From positions 1 through 42,171 of IMG/VR virus record IMGVR_UViG_3300006923_000049: a DNA stretch of 42,171 bases; one strand, given 5' to 3'. How positions within the stretch are numbered: the first letter of the stretch is position 1; every line of letters starts with the position of its first letter. Position numbers and translations under genes: made by a program. The DNA comes from a virus. This document shows, in pieces, positions 20,524 through 36,054 of the stretch. The notes beneath the pieces are model-generated. The model was not told the DNA's origin, did no database searches, and was given only the letters and a program-made list of their open reading frames with translations.

Positions 20524-22920
20524 TTACTCACCAACAGAATCCAGCAGGCATTTGATTTGGTCCGGAACTCCCTCAATCGTGGCATCTGGTGTATCCGTAG
20601 ATACAGGATCCTTATAAGTTTTTCTCGGAGGCCTATTCCCCTCTCTAACTTCAACGCTTTGTCCCGCAAGAATTAGCTTAGACGTGCTTTCTAGCGCAAT
20701 ATCTCCATCATTTCTAATCACCATAGGGCTTCCGGGATTCATTCCTGCAATAACCAAGCCATTCTTGCTTATAGATATGATATAATCAGAAGCATTTACG
20801 CTATCGACCTCTTCTCCGAGGAACCCTTTATGATTAACATTTACCCTTAATTCGAATCTTCCTTCATTAAATTGATCGCCATTAGTTCCTCCGATATTAA
20901 ACAACGTATCACCATCAGTCTGTACGACTAAGCTTCTATTGTTTTTATCTTTGCCAAACCATGCGATCATACTGCCTGCTGCATCTAATATAATGCTTTT
21001 TTGATCGTTATTATCTGACCCCACAGATGCTTCTATCGATCCTTCGAAGTTTAGATTGGCGCTCTTGCCACCCGGAGCTTTTCTGGCCTCTTTTGACTTG
21101 TCGATATTCGTAGAGATTAAATCGCCCTGCTCACTTTTACTTACAGCAAATGAATTAGAATACTGAATATTAACTCTGTCTTCATTTTCATTAAACTCCT
21201 GTGTGAAATCTTGTCCCGCGACAAGCACGCCTCCTCCGGGGTCTATAGCGGGAGGGCCGGGATAAACACTCACTGCCGCCATATAATTAACTTGTGCTGA
21301 ATCTTCTCCGTCTAATCCAAAAGTTTCCGATGCTCTCTCAAAAGATTTATTGATCGAATTGCCGGGAATATAGCCTGTGCATTTTGCATTTTGAAATGGA
21401 ATCAAAACGTTATTTATTGTATTCGCAATAAGCATTTCTGCTGCAGCATATATATTGTGATGTTTAGTTGGATTTACTCGAATACTCTCTGAGTCTGCAG
21501 CAGTCTCAGATCCAAGGCCTTCGAAATAATTGTCATCATTCGAATACCTAATTCCGGTAAAACGAGTAGCTCCGCTTTCCTCCTCCTGAATGGCGTCCAC
21601 TGCAGAACTAGCTGGAAACAACACTCCGCTCTCTGCATCTCGCAATGTAATCGGAATCTTTTCCTTTTTTCTAAAGCCATATGTGGTTTCAATTTTATCT
21701 GTTTTTTCAGAATAAAATTCTGCGAAATTAGGATAAGGAATATTTCCAGTATTTGATGTAGCTGGAATATTTGCCTTCAAAGCCCCCTCTTTATCAATGG
21801 ACAAAACGAAGTTGTCTCTGCTATTCGAAGTCTTGCTTGACAAGCTATTCGTAGAAACCTGAAAGTGATAACCGATGCCTCTTCTGGACTTTAGTCTCCC
21901 TTCTTCGTATCCTAAGATGAGATCTGTGCCAGAAGGATGACCCAGGGAATCTCCTATCGATACTCTGCCATAATTTGAATCAAGCACCTCTCCTCTTGAA
22001 TTTACAACGTTTCCTGCAATTACTTCAACAAGCTGATGCGGAGCAAGGTGTAGGGCATTTTCTTGAGAAATGGCTCTTACTTCTTTTTTTGTTGAAAATT
22101 TAGAAGTACTATTAGTCCTTACCAGAGAAGCCTCTTGGTCCCACCCTCTAAAATAGTCTGCCTCAGATATCTCATTTACAACAAGCCTATACTCAGATAG
22201 CGCAGGATTTCTTTTTCCTCCGAACAAGCTTACGGGGGCTGCCTTAAATCCGGGGAAAATACCTCTTGTAATTCCGTAGTCTAAATTATAAGTTAAAAGA
22301 TCATTTCCTACATCTGCAACTCCGCTCTTTTGGGTAAAGCCGCTTGGAATTCTAACGACTTCTCTCGAAGAGATTCTATGTGCAGAACTAACCATCTGGA
22401 CAGAGTCTGAAACGACAGAAAGGTTTGTTTTAGTGGAATTTGTTTTTTCAATAAAGATTCCATTGCTAAGCTCATTCCCCAGGAAGATTCCCGTTCCAGC
22501 TCCTCCAGACCCAGAGAGATATAACTCAGAGCCACCGCCTCCAAAGACCTTTACCTCTCCAGATTTCATGTTCTTTATGGGATACTCAGACCTTCCGGCG
22601 AGAGCATTCTCAGATGGCGTTCCTCCGGCTTCGCTCCCCCTATCTGTTTTGGGGACAATTCTAATCGCCTGCACAATGCCTTTCCCGCCAGGGTATACTC
22701 TTGTGCATATAACTGTATCCCCAATTTCCGGATGCTGATAAATGCCTGCGTCGCCAACTCCTCCGTAATAAACTGGAGGAATAACATAAGGATCATCGTT
22801 GTCAGTTGGATCTGTACTTATTATAAGGTCACCAGTTACCAAGTCTATATCCTTGATAAGAGCCTCAAATACCTTAAAGCTTGAAAGCTGACCCTCTACT
22901 TCTTCTGGGGAAATCGACAT
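20524..22920 (-). CDS. Baseplate central spike, gpV/gp5 OB-fold type
   Basis: 798 residues. The N-terminal 120 residues fit the OB-fold of gpV/gp5/VgrG spikes, with the typical PEIGDTVICTRVYPGGKG segment at about 63-81 followed by the closing strand IVQAIRIV. Downstream is glycine-rich (GGGGSELYLSGSGG), then long beta-rich stretches. The C-terminal 160 residues alternate short strands and turns (DGDTLFNIGG, DGDIALESTSKLILAG), as in the beta-helical needle that pierces the outer layer of the cell. The gene follows the hub gene directly, the usual hub-spike pairing. No lysozyme or peptidase domain is visible. The AGGAAAG ahead of ATG 22920 lies within the end of the hub gene. Confidence 0.75.
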   Translation of the reverse strand: MSISPEEVEGQLSSFKVFEALIKDIDLVTGDLIISTDPTDNDDPYVIPPVYYGGVGDAGIYQHPEIGDTVICTRVYPGGKGIVQAIRIVPKTDRGSEAGGTPSENALAGRSEYPIKNMKSGEVKVFGGGGSELYLSGSGGAGTGIFLGNELSNGIFIEKTNSTKTNLSVVSDSVQMVSSAHRISSREVVRIPSGFTQKSGVADVGNDLLTYNLDYGITRGIFPGFKAAPVSLFGGKRNPALSEYRLVVNEISEADYFRGWDQEASLVRTNSTSKFSTKKEVRAISQENALHLAPHQLVEVIAGNVVNSRGEVLDSNYGRVSIGDSLGHPSGTDLILGYEEGRLKSRRGIGYHFQVSTNSLSSKTSNSRDNFVLSIDKEGALKANIPATSNTGNIPYPNFAEFYSEKTDKIETTYGFRKKEKIPITLRDAESGVLFPASSAVDAIQEEESGATRFTGIRYSNDDNYFEGLGSETAADSESIRVNPTKHHNIYAAAEMLIANTINNVLIPFQNAKCTGYIPGNSINKSFERASETFGLDGEDSAQVNYMAAVSVYPGPPAIDPGGGVLVAGQDFTQEFNENEDRVNIQYSNSFAVSKSEQGDLISTNIDKSKEARKAPGGKSANLNFEGSIEASVGSDNNDQKSIILDAAGSMIAWFGKDKNNRSLVVQTDGDTLFNIGGTNGDQFNEGRFELRVNVNHKGFLGEEVDSVNASDYIISISKNGLVIAGMNPGSPMVIRNDGDIALESTSKLILAGQSVEVREGNRPPRKTYKDPVSTDTPDATIEGVPDQIKCLLDSVGE

Positions 22921-29168: not shown

Positions 29169-31088
29169 TTACCTTGAGACTTGCTTGCCCAAGCTGGCAG
29201 CAACCTCAAGATGGCCCTTCGTTCCCTCTGAAAGAGAAACGTTTATAGACAGATTATCGTTTAGGCTCTGTGTTATTGCTGCGGCCAATGCTGTAACAAA
29301 ATCATCTTTATTTACAAAGCCTGCCTCATTAATTGCTGCAGTACTTGCCGCTGCTGCAGCAGCCTCTGCAGCCATCACTACCATATCTGTATTTTTGCTT
29401 AAAGAATCTGCATTTGGATTTTTGCCTCTATCTTTTTCAGGAAGATCTGTATTTTGCGGATGAGAAGGGCTTTCATCTAAATCCGGCAAGTCGTCGTCAG
29501 CTCCAATTCCTGCGGCACCAAGCAGTCTTTTCATCAGCTTTCCATATGCATTCAGCCCCGCCTCAGCGCTCTCCTTGGCCTTTGCAACTGCCGGATCCAA
29601 GACGTTTTCCCTAAGAGCTCGGCCTCCGTCTCTTTGCTTCATAAAAATTGGGCGAGCTATTATTGCCAGCAAGTTCGATTGTGCTGCAAGATGCCTATTT
29701 GCCTTTTCCCATTCGTCCAGAGTTTTGTCTCTTCCCTCTTTCTCTTGAGTTAGCTGTTTCTCTAGCGAGCTTTTCGCAGTAAGATCTCCAGCCTTAGTAG
29801 CCTCATCTATCTTAGATAAGAGGTCTAACACTCTATTTGCTGAAGCTGCATCGCTTACTCCAAACTGATTTTGTAATAATTGTTGCTGAGTATAAAATTG
29901 TGTCTGTAACTCCGGGCTCTCAGCAGCCTGCTCTACCGTAACTATCTCTCCCCCAGTAAATGAAGCCAAAGTATCTCTCATCCCTTTTGCAAGCTGTGTT
30001 GCAAGCTCAGATTGATCACCTGTTCTGTCTGCCTTCAGAACCTCTGCCTGCAGGCCAATAGACGCGCCCAAGGCCCCGCCTCCAGCGCTACCACTCATCT
30101 CCAATCCTCCGCGCTGGAACATTATATAAGCATTTGCATAATTTGTTGTCAGATCAACAAGAGCGCCTGACAGAGAAGACGTTAGATCTTTTGCGTTTTC
30201 TATTCCAAGGCCCATATCCGTCATCACTCTCGCGAACCCCTGCAGAAGAGGGACGCCAAAATCTGCAGAAATACCAAGCTTTGTGAATCTATCAGCAGCA
30301 CCGTTTAAGGTGCTAGAAACGCTATCTACGCTTAAGCCGGTCTCTTTCGACACTCCGCTGAAAAGGCCCATCATATCAATTGCATCTTGAGCCCCTTTTC
30401 CCTGTTTGTTTAAAGCGATATTCAAAAGATTGACGCCCTCGGTTGTCGTAAGGCTTGTCGCCTTCGATAATGCCATAGCCGCCGTTAGCAGATTTGTCTT
30501 TCCTATTCCAGTTTCTACAGTTTTATTCAATTGATCCAGGGACATGTTGGAATTGCCAGTTGCCCGGGCAAAGGTCATCATTTCATCGAAAGTTAAATTA
30601 AGGCCTCTAGAAAATTGACTAAACGTTTCTTCCTTAAGTGTATCTGAAAACTCAAAGGCCTGATCTATTGTTCCGCCGAATCGTTTGTTTAGAGTAAAGA
30701 CTTCACTGGCAAATCGTCTGATATCTCTTGATGGAGCATCAAATAAATTAAAAGTAGTCTCAGCAACATCTTTGGATACGCCTACAAGGCTTTTCATAGA
30801 AAACTTTAGGATATTTGCTCCAGAGCCTAGAGTCGCAAAGACATCTTCAAGACCTCTCATGCTAAGCAGCTTGGCGGAAGCCTCTGCGGTTCCGCCTATT
30901 GCACTTGTAACGTTTATTGCAGATTTCGCTAAATCGTCAAAAGCAGTCGTCATACCGCCCACTTTGCCTTGTGATCTAGAGCCTAAGTTGGATAAGCGAC
31001 TTATTGCGTCAGCAGCGGCGTTTATACTATCGGTAGCCTTCTTTGCTTTGCCAGAATATTCGTCTAGCTTTTCGATCGTATCGGACAT
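29169..31088 (-). CDS. Tape-measure-like tail protein
   Basis: 639 residues, placed directly after the two chaperone ORFs, the conserved slot of the tape measure. The sequence is predicted mostly helical: a heptad-like N-terminus (KLDEYSGKAKKATDSINAAA), long amphipathic helices, a coiled-coil block at about 410-480, a proline/aspartate-rich hinge (DDDLPDLDESPSHPQNTDLP), an alanine run (AAEAAAAAASTAA), and a short C-terminal strand region. Tape measures fill the tube lumen and set tail length at roughly 0.15 nm per residue, which would give a tail near 96 nm. No clear membrane-spanning helix and no peptidoglycan hydrolase motif were seen. The start at ATG 31088 has only a weak ribosome site and lies four bases after the preceding stop, suggesting coupling. 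Confidence 0.7.
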   Translation of the reverse strand: MSDTIEKLDEYSGKAKKATDSINAAADAISRLSNLGSRSQGKVGGMTTAFDDLAKSAINVTSAIGGTAEASAKLLSMRGLEDVFATLGSGANILKFSMKSLVGVSKDVAETTFNLFDAPSRDIRRFASEVFTLNKRFGGTIDQAFEFSDTLKEETFSQFSRGLNLTFDEMMTFARATGNSNMSLDQLNKTVETGIGKTNLLTAAMALSKATSLTTTEGVNLLNIALNKQGKGAQDAIDMMGLFSGVSKETGLSVDSVSSTLNGAADRFTKLGISADFGVPLLQGFARVMTDMGLGIENAKDLTSSLSGALVDLTTNYANAYIMFQRGGLEMSGSAGGGALGASIGLQAEVLKADRTGDQSELATQLAKGMRDTLASFTGGEIVTVEQAAESPELQTQFYTQQQLLQNQFGVSDAASANRVLDLLSKIDEATKAGDLTAKSSLEKQLTQEKEGRDKTLDEWEKANRHLAAQSNLLAIIARPIFMKQRDGGRALRENVLDPAVAKAKESAEAGLNAYGKLMKRLLGAAGIGADDDLPDLDESPSHPQNTDLPEKDRGKNPNADSLSKNTDMVVMAAEAAAAAASTAAINEAGFVNKDDFVTALAAAITQSLNDNLSINVSLSEGTKGHLEVAASLGKQVSR

Positions 31089-31091
31089 AAT

Positions 31092-31517
31092 TTAATCTAT
31101 ATTTTCTTTTGCAATATTAAGAAGGCCAGCCAAGTTTTTCGGCAGACGAACATTTCGAGCGTCTTTAGCTCTTTCATTACCATATAAATTAGTATTTTTA
31201 TATTTATCCTTGATTGCCTGGACTATATGATCGTCCTTGAATGCTCTATTTAGAATCTGAGCCTCAAACTCAGCATCGTCCATAAACCTGGGATCTTCGA
31301 TAGATTCTCTTGAGTCCCGAATCTTCTTAACAGCTTCGGCATTCCAGAACGAAGCAAGATACTCGGTTATGCTCAAGTCATAATCGTATTGATCTTTTTC
31401 ATCCTGATAAAACATTTGAGCGTACCAAGACCACTGATCTCCTGTTATATCAAGAAATCTCGGATCATCAGAGCTGCAGTTCCAAATTTTGCAGAGTTTC
31501 CATCGGAGCCTACTCAT
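31092..31517 (-). CDS. Downstream tail assembly chaperone ORF (frameshift partner)
   Basis: 141 residues if started at ATG 31517; as the C-terminal part of a -1 frameshift product it is preceded by five additional codons (I-A-S-E-P) after the upstream ORF. The sequence is acidic and aromatic (DPRFLDITGDQWSWYAQMFY), as in 'T-type' chaperone segments that bind tape measure and tube subunits. ATG 31517 is the last base-paired codon edge of a perfect hairpin, and the only possible Shine-Dalgarno (GGAG, 3 bases away) lies inside the stem, so independent initiation should be poor. A frameshift fusion is the simplest expression route. Independent, low-level translation cannot be excluded. Confidence 0.65.
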   Translation of the reverse strand: MSRLRWKLCKIWNCSSDDPRFLDITGDQWSWYAQMFYQDEKDQYDYDLSITEYLASFWNAEAVKKIRDSRESIEDPRFMDDAEFEAQILNRAFKDDHIVQAIKDKYKNTNLYGNERAKDARNVRLPKNLAGLLNIAKENID

Positions 31518-31538
31518 AGGCTCCGATGCTATTTTTTT
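31501..31538 (-). promoter_or_regulatory. Programmed -1 ribosomal frameshift site: A AAA AAA heptamer plus 12-bp hairpin
   Basis: Minus-strand positions 31538-31532 are seven A residues, in zero frame as ATA AAA AAA TAG, so the heptamer A_AAA_AAA is correctly phased for tandem -1 slippage and sits immediately before the stop codon. Three bases (TAG) further on, CATCGGAGCCTA (31528-31517) pairs perfectly with TAGGCTCCGATG (31512-31501) around a TGAG loop. After slippage the ribosome would read ATA GCA TCG GAG CCT and then ATG 31517, entering the downstream frame exactly. The predicted fusion is 162 + 5 + 141 = 308 residues. The spacer is shorter than the usual 5-9 bases, but melting the lowest pairs would restore that distance. 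Confidence 0.8.
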
Positions 31539-32017
31539 ATGTCTTCTAACCCGACCTCTTTATTCGAGCCTTCAATCAGGCTCTCATGGACTCTGTGGAG
31601 TCTTTCTACCAGGGCTATCTGCATATTGAGAACAACAGCCAGCCTTCTCTCTTCCACCGAGAGATCCTCATTCTCATTGAGATCCTCAAGAGGTACGCCG
31701 TTAATTGTTCGAAGAGAATACGATACAGTTAAAGGCTTAATTTCCAGAAGCCTATCAGTCTCGCCAGACTTCATAATCGTTTGCATAATCTGCTTTTGCT
31801 CGCCTATGCTTAGAGTAGATACCTCGAATACAAAGCCATTAATCTTTTCTTTTTTCGTCAATTTACCTAAGAAGATCAAGTCCTTAAGCGAAGCAAGACT
31901 TATCTTTTCAGAAGAATCTTCTTCTTCATCTGGAAGATTCTGCGCCAACCTCTCCATTTCTTCGATATTCACGCTATCTGATTCATTGCTCAATACTTTT
32001 CCGGGTCTCTTAGGCAT
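31529..32017 (-). CDS. Tail assembly chaperone, upstream (G-like) ORF
   Basis: 162 residues, ATG 32017 with GGAG seven bases ahead. After an acidic, probably disordered N-terminus, residues 44-74 read LKDLIFLGKLTKKEKINGF then VFEVSTLSIGEQ. This 'L..fGK...k.ei.G..f...TLs..Eq' pattern is common in chaperones encoded between tube and tape measure of contractile tails. Such proteins coat the tape measure and recruit tube subunits, and are normally absent from the virion. The ORF ends AAA AAA TAG at a slippery run, so a fraction of ribosomes should continue into the next ORF to make the longer form. The two forms are needed in a fixed ratio in lambda-type G/GT systems; here the same logic is inferred. 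Confidence 0.7.
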   Translation of the reverse strand: MPKRPGKVLSNESDSVNIEEMERLAQNLPDEEEDSSEKISLASLKDLIFLGKLTKKEKINGFVFEVSTLSIGEQKQIMQTIMKSGETDRLLEIKPLTVSYSLRTINGVPLEDLNENEDLSVEERRLAVVLNMQIALVERLHRVHESLIEGSNKEVGLEDIKK

Positions 32018-32077: not shown

Positions 32078-32110
32078 CAAAAATGCCGCCCAAAAAGAGC
32101 GGCATTTTTG
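32078..32110 (-). terminator. Rho-independent terminator after the tail tube gene
   Basis: A 12-bp inverted repeat (32078-32089 with 32099-32110, core ATGCCGC/GCGGCAT) surrounds a 9-base loop. On the minus strand the right arm ends in five T residues followed by GTTTT, the U-rich tail expected of an intrinsic terminator. It lies 18 bases past the tube stop and 61 bases before the chaperone start, the only clear terminator in the window. On the plus strand it also has a T run, so it could act in both directions. The position would let sheath and tube transcripts exceed those of the downstream genes, which are needed in fewer copies. Confidence 0.85.
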
Positions 32111-32127
32111 CATAGATTTAATTATCT

Positions 32128-32760
32128 TTAGTAAGCGGCAGAAATCAGCCCAGGGAAGTCAAGAGAGCCTCTGCGCTCGCCAGAGTCGGCTGCGGTCTCA
32201 ATACTATCAATATTTCTGCCCGGGATCTCTCTGGAGCCTTGTGTGCCTTGGCTTAGGGCGATGGCCTCACCGGCTCTCGTTGTAGAGATATGCTCGCAGT
32301 GTACAGTTGCACTTTCTGTAATAGTATAATCACTAGAAGTATAGCTCTTTCCAAGAGAGGTAAACCAGCAGTTGTGGTAAGTCGTTACCACAGCATTATT
32401 TCCATCTCCAGTAAACTTATCAATCACAACAATATCAAAAGGCATCCTTTGAGACTGAATATTTCTAAATCCTCTTGAGAACGCCTCAGGAAGAGATAGC
32501 CCATCGAAAACTATCCTCTGAATAGTTAAATTAAACGTAGAAGGTCCCTGAGGAACAATTTCAATTAGCCCATCTGTTCCTACTTCTGACATGGACTTGA
32601 GAGGCCTTGTTTGGGCCTCTTGGAAGCTCTGAATTGCACCAACAGGCTCATTGTTAACATAAACAATGATCTGTGTTGATAGTCCGGCGCGAGTCCGACC
32701 GCCTGTTTCTGGCGGCGGGCTTCCGTCGAAAAGAGTTCCTGTGCTAGGGTAATCTGCCAT
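32128..32760 (-). CDS. Tail tube protein
   Basis: 210 residues, ATG 32760 with AGGAG eight bases ahead, 12 bases after the sheath stop. Sheath followed by tube is a hallmark order. The central part is beta-rich and tube-like: TQIIVYVNNEPVGAIQSFQE, then SEVGTDGLIEIVPQGPSTFN and LTIQRIVFDG, then a helix (PEAFSRGFRNIQSQ) and further strands (FDIVVIDKF, TYHNCWFTSLGKSY). In this family six subunits form a ring with a beta-barrel lining, and rings stack into the DNA conduit. The N-terminal 25 residues are glycine/proline-rich and the C-terminal 40 polar, both perhaps at ring contacts. Length is normal for the family (about 160-210). Confidence 0.85.
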   Translation of the reverse strand: MADYPSTGTLFDGSPPPETGGRTRAGLSTQIIVYVNNEPVGAIQSFQEAQTRPLKSMSEVGTDGLIEIVPQGPSTFNLTIQRIVFDGLSLPEAFSRGFRNIQSQRMPFDIVVIDKFTGDGNNAVVTTYHNCWFTSLGKSYTSSDYTITESATVHCEHISTTRAGEAIALSQGTQGSREIPGRNIDSIETAADSGERRGSLDFPGLISAAY

Positions 32761-32772
32761 TACTTTCTCCTA

Positions 32773-35700
32773 TTAAATGACGCCAACTTCGATGTCTATG
32801 AAGACATAGTTAATGGGGTAAGCTGGAGCAAATTGCAAAAAGACGTTGATCTGTCTCGGATCTACCTTGTCCTGCTCTACTCTAATGTTTTTAAAGCTTG
32901 TAACCAAACCTTGGCCGATTAAGCCATTCATAATAGTCCTTACCCTGCCACCCATAAGGATATTCGTATCTGCGTTTTGGACTCCACCAATAAAGGGCCT
33001 TAGAGAACTACGAAGGGTCCGCTTAACTGAATCTCTGATGAAGATGATAGAAATCTCTTCATCCTCAATAAAGCCAGATGTGCTGGTAGTCCTTCCTGCC
33101 AAGACTCTTCCGCCTCCTGTTATTGGCTGCAGCACTGTTGCGCCGACTCCACCAAGCTGATTCAGAATTGTTGGGCTATAAACCTTATCTCTTGTGATGC
33201 TAAATCCTGATAGAGGCTTGTCTGTAAGCGGAATTGCCACGTTCTGCTTAGCCGATAAGAATCCGGCTGCCGCAGCTCCCTGGTAGAAACCGTGAAGATT
33301 TACATTAGTTCCGTTTACGTTTCTAACAATACTATCGGGGAAGAGGTAAACGGACCTGTTGCTAGTGTAGTTATCACTTAACTTGAAGTTAACTAGATCC
33401 TCTACGTTTCCATCAAGAATCTCTTCCGCGTCATCTCCCTGGATACCTTCGATTATTCCGATATCTTCTATCGCAATCTCTCTTGTTCCAATGAGGGCAG
33501 CAGGAGTTACTCCTATCTGCGCGCCAATGAAGGCCATTCTTTCTTTGCGGTTTGCAACAGAACTCATGTTCTCACAGTGATTTACAGTTGCCCTAAAGAT
33601 TGAAGAGATCGCCTGATTCGGAAGAGGGACAATTATTTGAGCCTCTGCAGCCTCCATTGCCTCAAGTGCATCAAACCAATTTGTATCAAAAAAGTCTGCA
33701 TCATTCTCGTCAATGTAGGAGATCCTGAGCCCATCGCCTTCCTTTATTACTCCGCTGGATACTAAATCACTGTGTAGGAGAAGGAGCGCATCATCTGCGT
33801 TTGAATCTTCCGGATCCTTGATGAAGAATTGAATATCAGAGTAAGAGCCTTGCAGGTCCAGAGGAGAGCCATTCTCAGCTGATACCAGAACCAGTGAGTC
33901 ATCAGTTACCGAGTCAATTACCAACTCTACAGAGGGAGTCCCTAGGGCGACTCCGAATAGCTCCATCGAGATATCTTCTACAGAGGTGTGTACTATACCT
34001 GTGTCGGAATCTTCCATGCTAGATATAACGATTACGTGTCCAACGTTATCTCCGTCGAAGTCTATCTCTGGAGTTGTAAAGTATTCTGAGCCAGACTCGA
34101 CATCTAGGCTTCCCTCATCTCCATTTCCGACCACTTCCAGTACAGCATCAACAACAGTATATGAGAATGCGCTGTCTGAGCTATCGATCCATTGACCTTG
34201 CTGAATGTCAGTTGTCAGTTGAGAATTATAAAATGCAGACTTATTTGGGAAGACCTGTGTTTCTTCTCCATCTCTTATTACGAAAATGTTTACCCTTGTG
34301 TCGGGGTCAGGACGACCATTTCTAAGTCCAGTTAAAGGCCTTGGAATAGTGAACCTGAGATCATCAACCTCACATGCATCAGCAGATAAGGTTCCGGAAT
34401 CATAACAAGCGGAGAATCCACCTTCTCCAAGAGAATTCCTTTCCTCAAGAAGAGTTACAGAAGTTCTGCGCGGAACAGGCGGTTTGCACTGTAGGGCTAA
34501 GATTCCAGGCGCTCCATTCTCAAGGGCGATCTGAGTTCCTAGAGACAAAGTATTCTCTACGCTGGGAAGGCCGTGCTTTCTGAACAGGTCAGATGCTTCA
34601 ACGAAAAACTCTGGATCATTCAGATCTATAGTCGCTATATATTTAGCCTCAAGAGTATCTCCACGCCCAAGAGCACGGGAGCTAATGTCTACAAAAAACT
34701 TATCGCCAACCTCAAAGCTTGTTGCGCCCTCTTGGATGCCGAGCAACAGAACTCCGTTGTTCTCTAGGAGGTGGAATGTTAGACCTTCAGCCGCTAGGCC
34801 GGTCACAGAGGCACCTGAAGCTTCTTCTAAGTCTTGGAACCCTACCGTTGCATCGTCAAGGCTGTGAAGGCGTACACGTCTTGTAGAGGTAACCTTGCTG
34901 ATTGTAAAGAGGCCTCCATCGAAAGCTCCTCCGTTACAGATCAATACCGTCTTTCCTACATCTGCGCTTGAGAAGTTACCCTCAGAGGCAGGCGCTCCGG
35001 TTAGGCCATTATGTGTAACGGACGGATCATCGATCAATATGTTAGTCGCCCTAATGTCCCAATCATATAAGTCTGCTTCGTCCCAAACCGGTGAAGCCGG
35101 GCCTAAGCTATCTGTAGTTACGGTAATTGTAGTGTCAGTTCCATCATATGTTATGGTCTCAATCTCGTGACCAACATATCCGTCAAGACACAGGAAGTCT
35201 CCCGGCAAAGCCTGACCTTGGCTGACCAAGTCAGCACCGGAAACCATGAATGTGTCACTCGTAGCTAGCGTGTCATCTCCGTCCCTTAGGACGACGCTGC
35301 CACGGGGGAAGTCTGTAACGGAAACACTTCCACTCGCAACGACAACTCCGTCATCACATTCGGACAGATTTCCTGATACAGCTCCGGCTGTACTTGTAAA
35401 ATAAGCACTTGAGAATGTAAGGGGATTTCCAAAGCTATCATAAAGCTGACCAGAAGTATCTCCAGTCGCAGTAAATGTGGCTAGACCGGGAATAGGATCT
35501 CCGTTAGAATCCCTTACGACACTTACACATCTTATTGTCCAGCGCTCACTAGGGGCTGAATCATCGAGAATATCTAGAGTTAAGAGAGGATCGCAGCTAT
35601 CATTATCTACTAAAATGCCGGTTCCTACGTTTCCAGAGCCTGCGGAATATCCCTTTCCGTCTTGATCTCCAATTGAGGCTCCACGCAGCTCGATGCGACC

Positions 35701-36054
35701 ATTGGAAATATCTAGCCTATAATCAAACGGGGAGCTAACTCCTGATGAATCAATGACCTCTTGCTTTCCAAAAAGAAGAGTTCCATTTAGCCTAAGCTCT
35801 GTTCTGCCACTTATTACGGGAACATTGGATAGCTCAAAAAACCGGCCATCACCAGAGCCTGTCGGGCTCCAGCTTGACTCTCCATCCGCGCCGCCGCCTG
35901 CAGCAGACTGAACAATGGTTTCTTCTCTCAGGCCTTCGCCCAATACGGAAACGACTCTTATTCCGCCTGGAATAGAGACGCTGCGAGATACAACTCTATC
36001 TCTTGCAAATGCTCCAGGCTGTATAAAACCCGAAATTCCTGGTATGTTAGCCAT
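32773..36054 (-). CDS. Tail sheath protein, with large inserted domains
   Basis: 1093 residues, ATG 36054 with a strong GGAGGA six bases ahead, fitting a high-copy protein. The N-terminus (IPGISGFIQPGAFARDRVVSR) and the C-terminal 320 residues are sheath-like: EAMEAAEAQIIVPLPNQ near 796, KERMAFIGAQIGVTP, RSVYLFPD, then SFKNIRVEQDKVDPRQINV and a final hydrophobic arm, PINYVFIDIEVGV. Sheath subunits join neighbours by exchanging terminal strands and contract around the tube. Relatives have about 350-700 residues. Here about 400-500 residues in the middle (from about 90) are beta-rich and acidic, probably surface-facing insertions. The family is secure; what the inserts do is unknown. Confidence 0.9.
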   Translation of the reverse strand: MANIPGISGFIQPGAFARDRVVSRSVSIPGGIRVVSVLGEGLREETIVQSAAGGGADGESSWSPTGSGDGRFFELSNVPVISGRTELRLNGTLLFGKQEVIDSSGVSSPFDYRLDISNGRIELRGASIGDQDGKGYSAGSGNVGTGILVDNDSCDPLLTLDILDDSAPSERWTIRCVSVVRDSNGDPIPGLATFTATGDTSGQLYDSFGNPLTFSSAYFTSTAGAVSGNLSECDDGVVVASGSVSVTDFPRGSVVLRDGDDTLATSDTFMVSGADLVSQGQALPGDFLCLDGYVGHEIETITYDGTDTTITVTTDSLGPASPVWDEADLYDWDIRATNILIDDPSVTHNGLTGAPASEGNFSSADVGKTVLICNGGAFDGGLFTISKVTSTRRVRLHSLDDATVGFQDLEEASGASVTGLAAEGLTFHLLENNGVLLLGIQEGATSFEVGDKFFVDISSRALGRGDTLEAKYIATIDLNDPEFFVEASDLFRKHGLPSVENTLSLGTQIALENGAPGILALQCKPPVPRRTSVTLLEERNSLGEGGFSACYDSGTLSADACEVDDLRFTIPRPLTGLRNGRPDPDTRVNIFVIRDGEETQVFPNKSAFYNSQLTTDIQQGQWIDSSDSAFSYTVVDAVLEVVGNGDEGSLDVESGSEYFTTPEIDFDGDNVGHVIVISSMEDSDTGIVHTSVEDISMELFGVALGTPSVELVIDSVTDDSLVLVSAENGSPLDLQGSYSDIQFFIKDPEDSNADDALLLLHSDLVSSGVIKEGDGLRISYIDENDADFFDTNWFDALEAMEAAEAQIIVPLPNQAISSIFRATVNHCENMSSVANRKERMAFIGAQIGVTPAALIGTREIAIEDIGIIEGIQGDDAEEILDGNVEDLVNFKLSDNYTSNRSVYLFPDSIVRNVNGTNVNLHGFYQGAAAAGFLSAKQNVAIPLTDKPLSGFSITRDKVYSPTILNQLGGVGATVLQPITGGGRVLAGRTTSTSGFIEDEEISIIFIRDSVKRTLRSSLRPFIGGVQNADTNILMGGRVRTIMNGLIGQGLVTSFKNIRVEQDKVDPRQINVFLQFAPAYPINYVFIDIEVGVI

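Follow-up and report, generated by a model that had tools for sequence, protein, structure and literature searches.

The junction between the two tail chaperone reading frames of the window (the whole 42,171-nucleotide stretch analysed) very probably carries a −1 programmed ribosomal frameshift signal, for which comparison of 66 related junctions gives exceptionally good support. The original prediction of such a tail-chaperone frameshift is supported by a slippery heptamer common to all homologous junctions, a gapless frame in the main set of relatives, a hairpin beyond coding need and start codons that are mostly absent. That interpretation is essentially right, and the signal is a new member of the lambda G/GT kind of −1 frameshift, in an uncultured lineage of large phages. 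Both proteins of the junction are encoded with 100% identity in two other IMG/VR contigs (70,589 and 211,453 bases), and a large phage is therefore probable.

The junction and its gene neighbourhood

The features of the locus are:

29169–31088 (−), 639-aa ORF, candidate tape measure from its position and constant size only
31092–31531 (−), downstream (−1) frame, I-A-S-E-P plus 141 aa, predicted to form the T-like portion of the fusion; relatives do not conserve the nominal ATG at 31517
31529–32017 (−), upstream ORF, 162 aa, putative tail assembly chaperone (G-like), zero-frame product; assigned by fold model and PHROG matches of relatives
31532–31538 (−), slippery heptamer A_AAA_AAA, its phase set by the 162-aa ORF
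31529–31531 (−), UAG zero-frame stop, abutting the heptamer
31501–31528 (−), putative stimulatory hairpin, perfect 12-bp stem with TGAG loop
31528–31517 (−), 5' arm of this hairpin, CATCGGAGCCTA
31516–31513 (−), loop of this hairpin, TGAG
31512–31501 (−), 3' arm of this hairpin, TAGGCTCCGATG
31519–31525 paired with 31504–31510 (−), conserved core of this hairpin
32078–32110 (−), terminator-like hairpin between the tube and chaperone genes
32128–32760 (−), tail tube protein gene; phrog_985 (virion structural protein), E 8e-9; phage G gp180, E 3e-10

Most ribosomes would terminate at the UAG codon and release the 162-aa chaperone. A minority could be paused by the hairpin while two lysine tRNAs occupy A_AAA_AAA; these ribosomes would slip back one base, read AUA-GCA-UCG-GAG-CCU and continue through 141 further codons to a predicted 308-aa chaperone fusion. 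By analogy with lambda gpG and gpGT, the abundant short form would coat the tape measure protein, and the rare long form would recruit the tail tube subunit. The occurrence of slippage, its rate and the roles of both products are what we infer from this arrangement.

The minus strand bears out the predicted layout. The 162-aa ORF ends in GAC ATA AAA AAA TAG, which places the heptamer in phase and directly against the stop (31538–31529). Translation of the −1 frame gives K K I A S E P M S R L R W and enters the 141-aa ORF (31092–31517) exactly, with the K-K-I-A-S-E-P-M junction and 308-aa in-silico fusion foreseen earlier. The perfect 12-bp hairpin, three bases past the heptamer, is present as described; its predicted folding energy is −21.8 kcal/mol (z −6.0 against dinucleotide shuffles and −5.0 against synonymous-codon shuffles). 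It is the only perfect stem of at least 12 bp with a 3–8 nt loop in the window, and 0.017 such stems are expected in simulated sequence of the same dinucleotide composition. The earlier figure of 0.003 per 42 kb covered one loop size. The partner's ATG (31517) had been placed inside the stem, which holds for its A; the T and G belong to the loop. Since the junction DNA, including the A7 run, is identical in the two other contigs, the run is not a lone sequencing error, a possibility raised with the original prediction. Two more A7 runs lie within long genes on the minus strand of the window (at 22090 and 17477). Rfam gave no match in the window at the gathering threshold of its curated families, frameshift element families included.

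The gene order of the window is sheath, tube, chaperone pair, 639-aa ORF and further tail genes, including Baseplate_J. The sheath is identified by phrog_2839, and its match to the Pfam sheath C-terminal domain falls below the cut-off. The sheath-like protein (32773–36054, 1093 aa) is about twice as long as the sheath of phage G (579 aa); the C-terminal domain matches near its end only, and the remainder may hold large inserted domains. Relative to lambda G/GT, the location agrees on the tube side; on the other side the tape measure gene is a candidate, assigned by position and constant size only. ORFs of about 590–745 aa follow the junction in most relatives with a long enough contig. The 639-aa ORF had no PHROG or Pfam match, and phage G gp183, in the equivalent place, is annotated as tapemeasure.

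For the upstream protein, AlphaFold2 gave a model (pLDDT 79) similar in fold to tail assembly chaperones. Its comparison with the HK97 tail assembly chaperone 2OB9 gave Z 8.2 (rmsd 4.1 over 101 residues), well above unrelated entries, and that with YqbN (3KLU) gave Z 7.5; Foldseek reached an E value of only 0.15. PHROG tail assembly chaperone families (2792/2992) were matched by 22/46 family members; the window protein itself had no match to them. The downstream domain is modelled as helical (pLDDT 79), with no credible match in the PDB fold search. Pfam returned only scattered chance matches for both proteins of the pair.

A terminator-like hairpin with a T run stands between the tube and chaperone genes in 41/52 related loci, including phage G, with differing stem sequences (simple scan). 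Such a hairpin would favour the tube protein over the chaperone and tape measure proteins.

Access to the downstream frame and the slippery heptamer

Homologous junctions were gathered by searches with the downstream protein and its alignments, and duplicates were removed. The main set comprises 52 junctions (51 from IMG/VR and that of Bacillus phage G), where the window is counted as its identical copy L030; with 14 further junctions the total is 66 distinct ones (65 from IMG/VR and phage G). One homologous locus with a different arrangement, L099, is left out of the 66 and is discussed in the last section.

Between the point where the −1 frame opens and the conserved Trp, 47/52 junctions contain no ATG, GTG or TTG, and frameshifting is therefore the sole conventional access to the downstream frame there. 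The five exceptions are the window, L095 and L100, which carry ATG, and L067 and L068, which carry TTG at the Leu of LRW. These counts bear on translational coupling. In that scheme GGAG and the AUG at 31517 are masked by the hairpin until a ribosome terminating at UAG unwinds it and initiates again, and the partner is made as a separate protein. In the window lineage GGAG lies 3 nt upstream of the ATG, both overlap the hairpin and separate initiation would indeed be permitted; L095 also has an ATG at that place. Most relatives, however, have no start there. The ATG residue, regarded earlier as an unusual partner start within the stem, is a non-conserved loop codon, replaced by GTA, ATC, ACT, TAC, GAA and others in relatives, and coupling would leave the conservation of the heptamer without a reason. 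Coupling is thus very unlikely, and −1 frameshifting is the preferred reading.

An in-phase slippery heptamer stands at the end of the upstream ORF in 66/66 junctions, as A_AAA_AAA, A_AAA_AAC, A_AAA_AAG or U_UUA_AAA, and at the sequence level the overlapping or abutting ORFs are joined by a −1 shift at this heptamer. The rest of the upstream ORFs holds few in-phase heptamers of these kinds: 29 were counted in 8,213 codons, and A6T accounts for 14. At least 11 changes of heptamer are required on the family tree. In three main-set junctions A_AAA_AAA is combined with U_UUA_AAA, giving UUUAAAAAAA. The stop follows the heptamer directly in 46/66 junctions and after one sense codon in the other 20, so that slippage right before the stop, thought unusual at first, is the family rule. 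In the main set U_UUA_AAA is followed by one sense codon; some further relatives have the stop one codon after an A6N heptamer, and contact between stop and heptamer is therefore common rather than required. The distance from the stop codon to the conserved Trp is exactly 29 nt in 52/52 main-set junctions, including phage G.

The heptamer variants also bear on transcriptional slippage, in which one A would be added on the A run and the frame shifted in a fraction of mRNAs. The window does have an A7 run, and bacterial polymerases slip on about nine A or T (PMC5009743). Fifteen junctions, however, have UUUAAAA before a G, so that no more than four A are consecutive, and three have A6G; the hairpin and the codon phase are conserved as ribosomal slippage would expect. 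Slippage by the polymerase is accordingly even less plausible than coupling. A point against ribosomal slippage on the window heptamer is that A_AAA_AAA is weaker in E. coli than A_AAA_AAG, which shifts more (PMC5009743).

The hairpin under selection and its registers

For each junction, the 45 nt that follow the stop were tested against randomised sequences encoding the same peptide with the codon usage of the same genes. The natural hairpin was stronger than these synonymous shuffles at p<0.05 in 43/52 junctions and at p<=0.01 in 30 (mean z −3.27); the junctions share ancestry and the counts are not independent trials, which is answered in part by the positional control, where only the segment beginning at the junction reached a mean z of −3.2, six upstream segments gave −0.3 to +0.1 and downstream z decayed towards 0. 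Codons within the stem are biased relative to background (given second): Glu GAG 33/34 (33%), Leu CTC 27/37 (7%), Arg AGG 24/27 (21%) and Arg CGN 37/37 (21%). The conserved Glu after Trp (codon 10) is GAA in 10 and GAG in 2 cases where it is unpaired (type I), and GAG in 12/12 where it lies within the stem.

Three registers of the hairpin are distinguished:

Type I (the window and most relatives), GGAGCC paired with GGCTCC
Type II, AAAGCTCC paired with GGAGCTTT, the 3' arm on the Trp-Glu-Leu codons
Type III, AGAGCTCCC paired with GGGAGCTCT, the 5' arm closer to the stop

Types II and III each form one clade, and the two are joined with moderate support (93/89); their loci are L082, L083, L085, L086, L087, L089, L091, L092, L093, L094, L096 and L101. 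Replacement of the stimulator has thus proceeded with no insertion or deletion in the coding frame.

In the type I alignment 84.5% of the tested-stem cells are paired. The covariation score of 0.158 (0.120 +/- 0.011 in shuffles) was exceeded by 0 of 500 shuffles and by no slid register. A point on the other side is that the core is nearly invariant; two-sided compensatory changes inside it are few, and most are found at the tip. This comparison of the A7-stem pair in relatives, suggested along with the original prediction, supports −1 frameshifting. RNAalifold on the whole type I set recovers a 5-bp core only, because the foot and tip pairs differ between clades. The 3-base spacer of the window, previously listed among the unusual points, reflects extra foot pairs, which are probably melted by the ribosome by the time of the slip. 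Between the heptamer and the conserved core, CGGAGCC, the distance is 6 nt, and most-studied heptamer-structure spacers are 5–9 nt (PMC5009743); a structure at the usual distance is conserved beyond coding constraint.

The hairpin is not universal: in phage G, the L067/L068/L168 group and the distant L115–L119 group the heptamer is present, but the sequence that follows forms no significant simple hairpin.

On the plus strand the same stem is followed by CTA-TTTTTTT and was reported by a terminator scan; an intrinsic terminator blocking antisense transcription could be read from it. Against this, the T run shrinks to four in U_UUA_AAA relatives, the core stem ends about 6 nt from the T run in most relatives, and the stem has moved in the type II and III clades, with the in-frame heptamer alone constant. 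A terminator would also leave the missing start codons unexplained, and this function is highly improbable. A single gene broken by an indel or sequencing error, which two ORFs reading as one protein might suggest, is refuted because 66 junctions that differ in sequence all show this frame break together with an in-phase stop, and its probability is practically negligible.

Known systems and replacement of the parts

In lambda, both gpG and gpGT attach to the tape measure protein, the tube protein is the partner of the T part, and the gpG:gpGT molar ratio is about 30:1 (PMC5009743). The chaperone frameshift is widely conserved among long-tailed phages (PMC5009743, PMC10885494). As in lambda, the −1 shift is placed near the 3' end of the chaperone gene that follows the tail tube gene, and the downstream part would be made only as a fusion, a prediction here. 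Unlike lambda, the present phage is probably large and has a contractile tail, its proteins have no Pfam match to known G/T families, and A_AAA_AAN or U_UUA_AAA occurs with a strong hairpin, the zero frame ending at the heptamer or one codon later.

A parallel in annotation is Bacillus phage G, where gp181 and gp182 are annotated as tail assembly chaperones and gp182 as a joined CDS. The genes are homologous to those of the window and the gene order is shared, gp180 being situated just before gp181/182; the signal is A_AAA_AAC-UAG, and the stop-to-Trp spacing is identical. In contrast to the window, phage G has a longer downstream part (about 250 aa, ~24% identical) and no significant hairpin. 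Apart from this annotation, no published description of a frameshift in this phage group was found.

Among bacterial genes, E. coli dnaX likewise combines an A-rich heptamer (A_AAA_AAG) with a subsequent RNA hairpin. The dnaX frameshift shortens its product and is stimulated by a Shine-Dalgarno element upstream. Here, by contrast, the shift would extend the product, and an upstream Shine-Dalgarno stimulator is not enriched (18/51, 19.4 expected).

In this family of uncultured large phages, annotation should fuse the downstream ORF to the chaperone; the ORF may escape gene callers, because in most cases it lacks a start codon. Natural variants of heptamer and hairpin, all on one constant protein frame, form a series in which the determinants of frameshift efficiency could be tested.

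The frameshift itself is a known phage device, and the turnover of its parts is the more interesting aspect. In L099 (2454–3316, a single contig) the homologues of chaperone and partner (profile E 5e-22 and 3e-22) occupy two genes with a start codon each. This locus apparently does without a frameshift. A perfect 11-bp stem followed by T8, terminator-like, lies between the two genes. If the arrangement is real, the product ratio may be set there by transcription termination. Tentatively, and with slightly less than even confidence, the ratio of the two chaperones could be what is conserved while the parts are replaced: heptamers exchange, possibly via double-heptamer intermediates, the hairpin is rebuilt in three registers, and in L099 read-through of the terminator-like hairpin possibly takes over. 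The L099 arrangement points to transcription as another level at which such a ratio can be fixed.
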